In this document: one piece after another, positions 42,698 to 45,738 of the stretch
How the letters are laid out: every line of letters begins with the position of its first letter
Numbering within the stretch: position 1 is the first letter of the stretch
Source: Streptomyces sp. KMM 9044
Lineage (GTDB): Bacteria > Actinomycetota > Actinomycetes > Streptomycetales > Streptomycetaceae
Direction: 5' to 3'
Length of the DNA: 64,000 nt
Assembly: GCF_024701375.2 (NCBI RefSeq)
Contig: NZ_CP113910.1
Coordinates: 2,604,001-2,668,000, forward strand
Translations under genes and position numbers: made by a program
Notes under the pieces: generated by a model
Seen by the model: only the letters and a program-made list of their open reading frames with translations
Databases searched by the model: none
What the model was told of the DNA's origin: nothing

Positions 42698-42884
42698 AGC
42701 CGGCCCGACCGGACCGGTAGTGCGAGAAATACTGAGTCGCTGACCTGCGGGAACAGGATTGTCGCGGCTTATGTCCTCCCTCTTCCACCGCTGAATTGTT
42801 AGGCTCGTGGTTTCGCCCATCCGTGGAGGAACATCCTTCAGGGAGGGCGAGCTTTGCATTCCCACGTACCTACGAGGAGCACCA

Positions 42885-43382
42885 GTGACCCAGACCAGCG
42901 AGAACGTCACCTGGCTGACCCAGGAGGCGTACAACAAGCTCAAGGACGAGCTTGAGTACCTTACTGGTCCCGCGCGTACGGAGATCTCCGCCAAGATCGC
43001 CGCCGCGCGCGAGGAGGGCGACCTGCGGGAGAACGGCGGGTACCACGCGGCCAAGGAGGAGCAGGGCAAACAGGAGCTCCGCGTGCGGCAGCTCACCCAG
43101 CTCCTCGAAAACGCCAAGGTCGGTGAGGCGCCGGCGGCCGACGGTTCGGTGGCGCCCGGCACGGTCGTCACGATCGCCTTCGACGGCGACGAGGACGACA
43201 CGCTGACCTTCCTCCTCGCCTCGCGTGAATACGCGAGCGGGGACATCGAGACGTACTCACCGCAGTCCCCGCTGGGTGCCGGGGTCAACGGCCACAGGGT
43301 CGGCGAGGACGCGGAGTACGAGCTGCCGAACGGCAGGAAGGCCTCGGTGAAGATCCTCAGGGCCGAGCCGTACGACGGCTGA
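42885..43382 (+). CDS. greA: transcription elongation factor GreA
   Basis: The 165-residue RNA polymerase factor rescues backtracked complexes by stimulating transcript cleavage. The coiled coil (WLTQEAYNKLKDELEYL to AKIAAAREEGDLRENGGYH) ends in the tip with DLRENG, where Asp and Glu act in the polymerase channel. A C-terminal FKBP-like domain follows (YELPNGRKASVKIL). GTG 42885 has GAGGAG at 7 nt. Upstream frame to 42807 is leader. Confidence 0.96.
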   Translation: MTQTSENVTWLTQEAYNKLKDELEYLTGPARTEISAKIAAAREEGDLRENGGYHAAKEEQGKQELRVRQLTQLLENAKVGEAPAADGSVAPGTVVTIAFDGDEDDTLTFLLASREYASGDIETYSPQSPLGAGVNGHRVGEDAEYELPNGRKASVKILRAEPYDG

Positions 43383-43527
43383 CTCCGGCCGGCTCCACCC
43401 TGCGCGTCCGCACGACCGGGACTCCGCACGCCGGAACTCCGTATTCCGGGACTCCGCGCGCGGCGCGCTTCCGACCGGCCCCCGGCAGTCCTCCCCGACA
43501 GGGAGGCTGCCAGGGGCTTTGTCGTGC

Positions 43528-43677
43528 CGTCGGACTCTGCTGCGCAATTACCCGGCGTGATGACGCCGTGCCGATACGGCCTTCAGAGCGCGTCGCAGAT
43601 GCAGGCAGGCCGGGCGCGGCCGAGCCCGGAAAGCACGGCACGTGATCGCTCGCCGAATGGAGCAGCAGAGTCCCGTC
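43528..43677. mobile_element. MITE-like element 1 (142 bp)
   Basis: Ends GGACTCTGCTGCGCAATT (43532-43549) and its inverse AATGGAGCAGCAGAGTCC (43656-43673) enclose 142 bp with no gene. The element is flanked by CGTC on both sides (43528-43531 and 43674-43677). Terminal inverted repeats plus a short direct repeat are the mark of a non-autonomous transposable element. No transposase with such ends is in the window. Confidence 0.6.
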
Positions 43678-43824
43678 GGACTCTGCTGCTCCATTCGAGG
43701 GAGGGGCACGCACCGCATCCGAGAGGGGCCGGCCGGGGCCGGACCGCCTCCTCGCGAGGCCCGTTCCCTGCGCCCCGTCGACGGGCCGGCGTCACTCTCC
43801 GCAATGGAGCAACAGAGTCCCGTC
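43674..43824. mobile_element. MITE-like element 2 (143 bp), abutting element 1
   Basis: Ends GGACTCTGCTGCTCCATT (43678-43695) and AATGGAGCAACAGAGTCC (43803-43820) enclose 143 bp. CGTC flanks both sides, and the left copy is shared with element 1. Its interior is not alike in sequence to that of element 1. The joint between the two forms a perfect 19-bp stem with CGTC loop (43655-43696), which may also stop transcription from greA and ilvA. Confidence 0.6.
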
Positions 43825-43838
43825 GGGCCGGATCGAGG

Positions 43839-45068
43839 TCAGCCGATGACCGTGTAGCCCGCGTCGCGCAGGACCCGGTCGACCTCGGTGCGGTGCGCCG
43901 GGCCCTTCGTCTCGAGGTGCACCTCGACCTCCACCTCCGTGAGCCCGAGCCGGGGGTCGGTCCGTACATGGCTCACGTCCAGGACGTTGGCGTCGGCCAC
44001 CGACAAGGCCCCGAGAAGCATCGCGAGGGCGCCCGGCCGGTCCGGCAGACGCAGCCGTACGGCCAGGTAGCGGCCCTGCGCGGCCATGCCGTGCCGCAGC
44101 ACCCGCTCCATCAGCACCGGGTCGACGTTGCCGCCGGACAGCACGGCGACGACCGGTCCCTCGAAGGCGTCGGGGCGGCTCAGCAGCGCCGCGACCGGGC
44201 TCGCCCCGGCCGGCTCCACGACCAGCTTGGCCCGCTCCAGGCACAGCAGCAGCGCGGCCGACAGCTCGCCCTCGGTGACGGTGCGGACCTCGTCCACCAG
44301 CTCGCCGACGATCCCGAACGGCACGTCGCCGGGCCGCCCCACCTTGATGCCGTCGGCCATCGTCGCCGGGTCGCGCACCGACACCGGGTGCCCGGCGGCC
44401 AGCGAGGGCGGGTACGCGGCCGCGCCCTCCGCCTGCACCCCGATGATCCGTACGTCCGGCCGCAGCGCCTTCACCGCGACCGCGATCCCGGCGACCAGCC
44501 CGCCGCCGCCGGCACCGACGACGATCGTGCGCGCCTCCGGGCACTGCTCCAGGATCTCCAGGCCCACGGTGCCCTGGCCGGCGATGATGTCGGGGTGGTC
44601 GAAGGGATGGATGAACACGGCGCCCGTCTCGGCCGCGTACTCCTCGGCGGCGGCCAGCGCCTCGTCGACCACCTGGCCGTGCAGACGCACCTCGGCTCCG
44701 TACTCCCGGGTGGCGCTGATCTTCGGCAGTGGGGCGCCCTTCGGCATGAACACCGTCGCACCCACCCCGAGCAGCGAGGACGCGAGCGCGACGCCCTGCG
44801 CGTGGTTTCCGGCACTCGCGGCGACGACACCGGCGGCGCGCTGCTCGGGCAGCAGCCCGGCGATCCGGACGTACGCGCCGCGCAGCTTGAACGACCCCGT
44901 CCGTTGGAGGTTCTCGCACTTCAGGTGCACCGGGGTGCCCACCGTGCGGGACAGGTACCTGCTGCTCTCCATCGCGGTCATCCGCGCGACGCCCTGGAGC
45001 ATCTTCCGGGCACCGCGTACGTCATCGAGGGTGACGGTGCGCAAGGAGTCAGCCGTGCCGTAGCTCAT
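43839..45068 (-). CDS. ilvA: threonine ammonia-lyase with ACT domain
   Basis: The 409-residue PLP enzyme turns threonine into 2-oxobutanoate and ammonia. PLP Lys is residue 61 in RTGSFKLRGA; the Gly-rich phosphate loop is VGAGGGGLVAG. A single C-terminal ACT-type domain (about 325-409) may bind a regulatory amino acid. It is shorter than E. coli IlvA, which has two such domains, and fits the short biosynthetic or catabolic type. ATG 45068 gives the conserved start. It is divergent from the MarR gene. Confidence 0.93.
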   Translation of the reverse strand: MSYGTADSLRTVTLDDVRGARKMLQGVARMTAMESSRYLSRTVGTPVHLKCENLQRTGSFKLRGAYVRIAGLLPEQRAAGVVAASAGNHAQGVALASSLLGVGATVFMPKGAPLPKISATREYGAEVRLHGQVVDEALAAAEEYAAETGAVFIHPFDHPDIIAGQGTVGLEILEQCPEARTIVVGAGGGGLVAGIAVAVKALRPDVRIIGVQAEGAAAYPPSLAAGHPVSVRDPATMADGIKVGRPGDVPFGIVGELVDEVRTVTEGELSAALLLCLERAKLVVEPAGASPVAALLSRPDAFEGPVVAVLSGGNVDPVLMERVLRHGMAAQGRYLAVRLRLPDRPGALAMLLGALSVADANVLDVSHVRTDPRLGLTEVEVEVHLETKGPAHRTEVDRVLRDAGYTVIG

Positions 45069-45213
45069 GCCTCCAGCATCGCAGTTCACGGGAGACGGGC
45101 GAACGCGGTGACCCACGGGTGGACCCGGCTTTGCGAAGCGTCGGTACGGCCTGCCTCCCGGCCGCGTACCCTGTCCCCCAATCAGCAGCCCTTCACGAAG
45201 TGAGCCTCCGGCC

Positions 45214-45738
45214 ATGCCCACAACACCTGACATGTCGATGGACATGACGACCGTCGGTGACCCCGGCCTCCTCGAAAAGCTGCAGCACGAGGTGGCGCTG
45301 TTCGCCCGCCGCGCCGAACAGACCCGGCTCGGCGGCGTCGGCCAGGTGCGCAACTCCATGGACCGCGCCGCCTATCTGCTGCTCAACCGCCTGGACAACG
45401 AAGGCCCTATGGGGGTCAAGGCGCTCGCAGCGAGCATGGGCATCGACTCGTCGACGGTCACCCGCCAGGTGGCACCGCTGGTGGACACCGGTCTGGTGAA
45501 ACGCACCTCGCACCCCGAGGACGGCCGGGCGGTGGTGCTCCAGCTGTCTCCGCGCGGGCAATCACGTCTGGAGGAAGTCCGTTCCTCACGGCGTCAGCTG
45601 ATGGCCGAACTGACGGAGGACTGGGAGCAGGAGGAGCGCGAGGCGTTCTGCGCGCTCCTCACGCGCTTCAACAGCGCGCTCTCCGCCCGGATGGCGGCAC
45701 CGGACCTGCCGGGGCAGGACGGACGGCCTGCCTCCTGA
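45214..45738 (+). CDS. MarR-family transcriptional regulator
   Basis: The 174-residue winged-helix repressor type has a DNA-binding core LAASMGIDSSTVTRQVAPL and the wing KRTSHPEDGRAVVLQLS, with helical dimer arms at both ends. The ligand is unknown. Nearby targets could be itself or the divergent ilvA, but no clear palindrome is seen in the 145-bp gap. Confidence 0.92.
   Translation: MPTTPDMSMDMTTVGDPGLLEKLQHEVALFARRAEQTRLGGVGQVRNSMDRAAYLLLNRLDNEGPMGVKALAASMGIDSSTVTRQVAPLVDTGLVKRTSHPEDGRAVVLQLSPRGQSRLEEVRSSRRQLMAELTEDWEQEEREAFCALLTRFNSALSARMAAPDLPGQDGRPAS

Follow-up and report, generated by a model that had tools for sequence, protein, structure and literature searches.

The intergenic region between greA and ilvA of Streptomyces sp. 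KMM 9044 harbours two abutting MITEs, A and B, which very probably stacked at a TTTG-anchored site to which both were moved in trans by a transposase of the IS1182 family, B arriving first and A second. It is proposed that this DDE transposase recognises the word (C/T)TTTG on one side of the target and makes a cut, staggered by 4 bp, at a distance of 6 bp past it, the element being inserted in either orientation. The word lies outside the duplicated bases and an insertion would thus leave the order word-N6-target-site duplication (TSD) intact on one side; since the site survives, a later element could re-use the same 4 bp, landing between the word and the older element and giving rise to TSD-unit-TSD-unit-TSD. 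MITEs, IS1182 elements and tandem insertion are already known, and the novelty lies in the one-sided TTTG rule and the ordered arrays; a literature search, with most subscription journals outside its coverage, returned no paper on a TTTG target word or on ordered MITE arrays of this kind.

The array between greA and ilvA

The features of the array and its neighbours are given below as positions in the window, which is the whole stretch of 64,000 nucleotides that was analysed.

42807..43382, + strand: greA, upstream neighbour (NF001262, 244.7 bits, cut-off 161)
43517..43521, + strand: CTTTG as the target anchor, with TTTG at 43518-43521 and 6 bp between it and the first CGTC; read from the sequence and the target rule
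43528..43531, no strand: first CGTC, 4-bp target-site duplication
43532..43673, + strand: MITE of type A, 142 bp long, nearer to TTTG; putative later insertion
43532..43549, + strand: left terminal inverted repeat of A
43656..43673, - strand: right terminal inverted repeat of A
43654..43697, no strand: joint palindrome with 20-nt arms, the loop being the 4-bp duplication
43674..43677, no strand: second CGTC, common to A and B
43678..43820, + strand: MITE of type B (B143 group), 143 bp long, farther from TTTG; putative earlier insertion
43678..43695, + strand: left terminal inverted repeat of B
43803..43820, - strand: right terminal inverted repeat of B
43821..43824, no strand: third CGTC
43839..45359, - strand: ilvA (threonine ammonia-lyase), downstream neighbour (TIGR01127, 436.6 bits, cut-off 378.75)

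The array is real, and the preliminary description, which had claimed four 18-bp ends, a pair of units 142 and 143 bp long and the arrangement CGTC-unit-CGTC-unit-CGTC, holds at each of these positions. The four ends carry 2, 0, 0 and 1 mismatches in their order along the window, with a chance mean of 0.05, and none of 100 shuffles reached four copies. The joint had been described as a perfect 19-bp hairpin; its inverted repeat is indeed fully complementary, the arms measuring 20 nt and lying 4 nt apart. The one claim to fall is that the interiors are unlike, as the interior of A matches that of B once the latter is reverse-complemented (family consensus sequences, z 4.6, with none of 500 dinucleotide shuffles as good), and the comparison with B in the forward direction gave no alignment (z -0.3). 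A and B follow a distant common plan in opposite orientation, and this relatedness can account for the near-equal lengths of the units. Both units have the size and the 18-bp terminal inverted repeats of MITEs and are too short for a transposase; open frames run across both in this GC-rich DNA. A search of Rfam over positions 43350-43950 gave nine weak matches, the best at 30 bits against a gathering score of 82.

Dispersed copies, empty sites and partner elements

The genome comprises 7.43 Mb in three contigs, C1 and the 109-kb C3 among them, and contains 242 copies of the 18-bp end at no more than one mismatch, compared with none for the reversed control; a lack of other copies would, according to the preliminary description, have spoken against a mobile family. 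In all, 107 units were parsed from 78 stretches (45 A, 59 B and three full IS), which is a lower bound because the stretches were drawn from the end matches listed and the A and B similarity searches scored 40 candidates each, and most of these units carry one 4-mer on both flanks. CGTC serves as the flanking 4-mer at the window site alone among the parsed units, other sites having other 4-mers; it is the 4-bp target duplication of this one site. Eighty loci minus five with duplicated flanks left 75 sites, with outer 4-mers that are equal at 60 and one base apart at 10, and a single unit occupies 54 of the 80 loci, one of which (C1:1964329) later proved to be a tandem. Target duplications and many dispersed copies support the MITE reading of the two units. 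Mean divergence from the consensus amounts to 1.6% for A (n=42) and likewise 1.6% for B133 (n=8), 2.6% for B139 (n=3), 5.5% for B143 (n=30) and 5.2% for B145 (n=14). The chromosome and contig C3 have common stretches with the same MITE insertions (L051, L052, L055; C1:7273124, C3:8651), and at L063 (C1:5717003-5717300) some 155 bp with inverted ends near TTCGAAG, yet another small repeat element, interrupt a B unit.

Related genomes provide contiguous empty sites at at least five of 11 tandem sites, among the matches listed:

C1:5369600 and C1:2592346: tandem sites that are empty in G340
C1:5871551 and C1:4648969: tandem sites that are empty in G154
C1:3551759: tandem site that is empty in G303

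For the other six, the window locus included, there is no relative among the matches listed. The preliminary description had named the same array, with the same interiors, in every Streptomyces greA-ilvA gap as a further outcome that would contradict an insertion; among the loci of 29 relatives greA lies next to ilvA only in G017 (L116), which has neither the ends nor the array, at a poor alignment. The exact joint pattern is confined to the window's own genome among 392 genomes sampled from the genus. A search of one genome for each of 84,980 species, which may leave out records near the window's genome, gave the joint pattern in seven stretches from other phyla or genera, which are taken as chance, and the array had no match in 72,556 plasmid records. 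Similarity to the units was seen in 59 of the 392 genomes with the best two candidates scored per genome, nearly all of the listed matches being short and weak, and G340, G296 and G383 were taken further; G296, another species, has a full-length A-like unit at 76% identity. An A-like match in G383 (L159) was not used as it is without recognisable ends. A different MITE, some 122 bp long and similar at its ends, is present in G340 (L266, L267); the interior of the L266 copy is unlike A or B.

A transposase whose ends match, proposed as a check, is found in the same genome in the form of IS1182-family elements. A protein search for the transposase gave three matches at 99-100% identity in one piece, two further at 99-100% in two pieces, presumably because an internal EA repeat varies in length, two relatives at about 74%, each having one piece with an internal TGA, a frameshifted copy at C1:425928 with pieces below the NF033551 cut-off, and more distant matches. 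The two intact copies tested score 281.2 and 280.5 bits with the NCBIfam model NF033551 (IS1182; cut-off 270). These IS are 1,852-1,968 bp long and have ends such as GACTCCGTTGCCCAATT and GACTCTGCTGCGCAATT that are close to the MITE ends, as at C1:2279921, 2353193, 425928 and others. The copies with their 4-bp duplications, the empty sites of relatives and the IS with matching ends together support the earlier suggestion of a non-autonomous family that inserts side by side, and its alternative, modular cassettes sharing ends, is not needed. The MITE interiors, as candidate remnants left by deletion from the IS, gave no alignment above shuffles with three of the genome's own IS; A including its ends scored 31.5 against one IS, the shuffle maximum being 27. 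It is probably these IS transposases that mobilise the MITEs, for which the same duplication length and TTTG distance offer indirect support.

Two near-identical transposases (L058, C1:2279957-2281882; L059, C1:2353229-2355169) have 625 and 647 aa, a difference that mainly reflects an internal Glu-Ala repeat run and the chosen start. The IS1182 copies at C1:722182 (L283) and C1:746450 (L285) lie about 24 kb apart and have mismatched flanking 4-mers, which looks as if IS-IS recombination had rearranged the region.

The TTTG word and the order of insertion

TTTG starts exactly 10 bases before the duplicated 4-mer, with 6 bp between, at 67 of the 75 sites, and is preceded by C in 57 and by T in 10 of these; all other offsets together yielded TTTG six times in 5,400 chances. 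The eight remaining sites include three with TTTG a few bases off and five without it. The target word is one-sided: TTTG occurs on both sides at only one of the 75 sites, the rearranged IS-B locus C1:425928, and no position of the target profile exceeds 0.2 bits besides TTTG and the bases just before. Relative to the word, single units are inserted either way round (A 10:6, B 13:12). The rule extends to the genome's own IS, applying to all four with an intact duplication; among the four with a broken duplication, the word is present at C1:722182 and C1:425928 and missing at C3:99569, and C1:746450 carries CTTTC. In G296 the rule applies to eight of eight IS copies and to the A-like MITE, and in G340 to six of the seven whole MITEs fetched (the exception being L267), with TTTG on the available flank of two of four half elements near contig ends (L268-L271). 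An IS in G154 (L261) has neither duplication nor TTTG. Fifteen plasmid IS were examined among 20 matches listed (123 records), of which L277, L281 and L282 were dropped with ends that were not resolved; the rule applies to eight of the remaining 12, two from Rhodococcus, and L189, L190, L275 and L280 are without TTTG at the exact place. L278, evaluated on the end pair that ranked second, has flanking 4-mers that differ and carries TTTG on either side. The distance conserved between word and insertion suggests that it is the transposase itself that reads TTTG. The anchor, which the preliminary description had missed, explains why insertion occurs at the same 4 bp.

Twenty-five (C/T)TTTG words are present in the window, and by extrapolation about 2,900 in the genome. 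By rough gene calls, which are heuristic and cover 72% of the window, 18 of the 25 window targets and 57 of 77 insertion sites lie outside genes; with the caution due to small numbers, the TTTG rule may act as a passive safe-site rule in this GC-rich genome.

Facing ends 0-30 bp apart form 25 joints, of which 24 measure exactly 4 bp (reversed control, two per strand). One 4-mer occurs three times, as TSD-unit-TSD-unit-TSD, in 21 tandems (19 identical, two with one change), all of which pair A with B; one of them is interrupted by a foreign unit and in another one partner was recognised only on closer inspection. A and B occur in all four orientation combinations, with 17 tandems head-to-tail and four, including the window pair, inverted (p 0.007). 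The other tandem loci comprise three A/B pairs with a different inner 4-mer, one B-B, one IS-B and one copy with duplicated flanks. An A-A tandem was not seen among the parsed tandem loci; near-identical neighbours would be expected to be lost by recombination. The foreign unit (L064, C1:4271862-4272034) of about 165 bp lies between A and B, has its own inverted ends (GCTCCCTCCTCCGC type) and is bounded by TA, apparently having inserted in the TA of a TAGC duplication; it is presumably an IS630-type MITE.

A lies on the TTTG side in all 18 same-4-mer tandems with B143 or B145 (p 8e-6), and in the remaining three the unit nearer to TTTG is B133 or B139. As A is the less diverged type in the 18, the arrays seem to be arranged by age. 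A word that fixes the insertion point would force every newcomer to land on the word side, so that position would record arrival and A would be the later element. Divergence does not order A against B133 (1.6%, the same as A) or B139 (2.6%, n=3). Two of the three loci whose inner 4-mer differs have A next to TTTG; in the third, a triple array on C3, B is the member of the B-A pair closer to the word. Two B insertions recur at orthologous places in G340, and none of the six element loci of G340 that were compared yielded A, as is consistent with a greater age of B; a relative with B alone at a tandem site was not found. In the window, B would have inserted first and A, next to CTTTG, would be the newcomer.

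Sites that hold a B already are favoured: 18 of some 39 A insertions fall at the 44 sites with an older B, with 0.6 expected if all of the roughly 2,900 (C/T)TTTG sites were equal, or 1.7 for 1,000 usable ones. Insertion sites differ in quality. A GCAT site in copies of a transposase-like gene (best NCBIfam match IS5 at 57 bits, below the cut-off of 140) holds B alone, B with A, or an IS1182 IS end (L106, L083, L085, L286), and a second such site, with CTTTC, is occupied by A in one copy and by an IS in a different copy. The TTTG rule alone does not explain the excess at occupied sites or the head-to-tail bias. By analogy with IS30, recruitment by the resident end may add to the excess; the 17:4 bias would fit such recruitment, and would equally fit the loss of the perfect palindromes of inverted pairs.

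Taken by itself, targeting of a resident's inverted repeat whatever the surrounding sequence would account for an excess that is about tenfold or greater and for the 17:4 bias, and passages of PMC9333248 report IS30 beside its own inverted repeats or in hot spots. This is an improbable sole cause, as it predicts A on the TTTG side in about half of the tandems with B143/145, against the 18 of 18 seen; moreover the spacer equals the outer target duplication at 21 loci (two with one changed base), both relative orientations occur, the window pair being inverted, and insertions across the copies of a repeated gene return to one 4-bp site. End targeting could still contribute by assisting the TTTG rule. 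Still less credence attaches to A-B transposing as a pre-formed dimer, which gains from the three loci with equal outer and different inner 4-mer (ACCT in either direction; C1:224916, C1:5871551, C3:26400); at C1:224916 inner and outer differ by one base, for which simple mutation would suffice, and the possible source, C1:3551759, shares only 90-95% identity with the ACCT loci in the B unit, against 98-100% in the A unit. Such composite transposition was rejected as a general cause for the 21 loci, where inner equals outer 4-mer, and the three ACCT loci remain candidates; all four orientation combinations and the single units at 54 of 80 loci also argue against a dimer.

A fixed structural RNA or terminator of the greA-ilvA gap would be in keeping with the folding of both units, which exceeds that of shuffles on either strand (z -2.5 to -3.9), and with the hairpin that precedes the window anchor. 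It can practically be dismissed in view of the dispersed copies with 4-bp duplications, the empty sites and the occurrence of the exact joint pattern in one of 392 genus genomes; hairpins directly precede only six of 67 anchors compared with 12 of 67 far flanks. There is no excess, and targeting of terminators was rejected for the same reason. Stacking of MITEs at a TTTG-anchored site would give an IS1182 clade a precise, testable target rule. It accounts for rows of adjoining short elements that carry one 4-mer three times, and such rows would become a record of the order of arrival. A wider proposition, in which the off-centre one-sided word (TTTG-N6-4 bp) builds polar, dated arrays in one clade of IS1182 transposases, word and resident end jointly recruiting the newcomer, is advanced tentatively and has somewhat less than an even chance of being correct.

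Comparison with known systems

The partner elements resemble IS1182 (NF033551) and IS1272 in transposase family, IS size and short inverted ends. A table row for ISPse1, an IS1182-family element, ends in 4, which is taken as the duplication length (PMC3281130), and the part of PMC7188733 concerned only lists IS5/IS1182 transposases. According to the relevant passages of PMC5678879, IS1272 replaces target inverted repeats without duplication and some IS1182 members target palindromes. Unlike IS1272, the elements described here duplicate 4 bp of the target and have their one-sided word at a distance of 6 bp, with no excess of hairpins at the anchors.

IS911 forms side-by-side elements and dimers. 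The arrays are reminiscent of IS911 and of IS30, in which elements also come to adjoin one another across a gap of few bases and are able to form dimers (for IS30, passages of PMC9333248). IS30 gives exclusively IRL-IRR joints according to the same passages, and the joints here occur in two orientations, 17 head-to-tail and four inverted. In contrast to both systems, the spacer here is the target duplication of the site and what appears to be the younger type lies on the anchor side.

Tandem insertion is called common among insertion sequences in the part of a casposase paper that deals with it (PMC6977970). Casposons and the leader-end growth of CRISPR arrays share with the MITE arrays a fixed outside signal, repeated insertion at one site and a duplicated target between units. 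The newest CRISPR unit adjoins the leader. Unlike those systems, the arrays described here involve a DDE transposase, a 4-bp duplication and mobile elements instead of captured spacers, which makes the analogy a functional one only. If the proposed ordering is true, polar and dated MITE arrays would represent the DDE counterpart of leader-anchored array growth.
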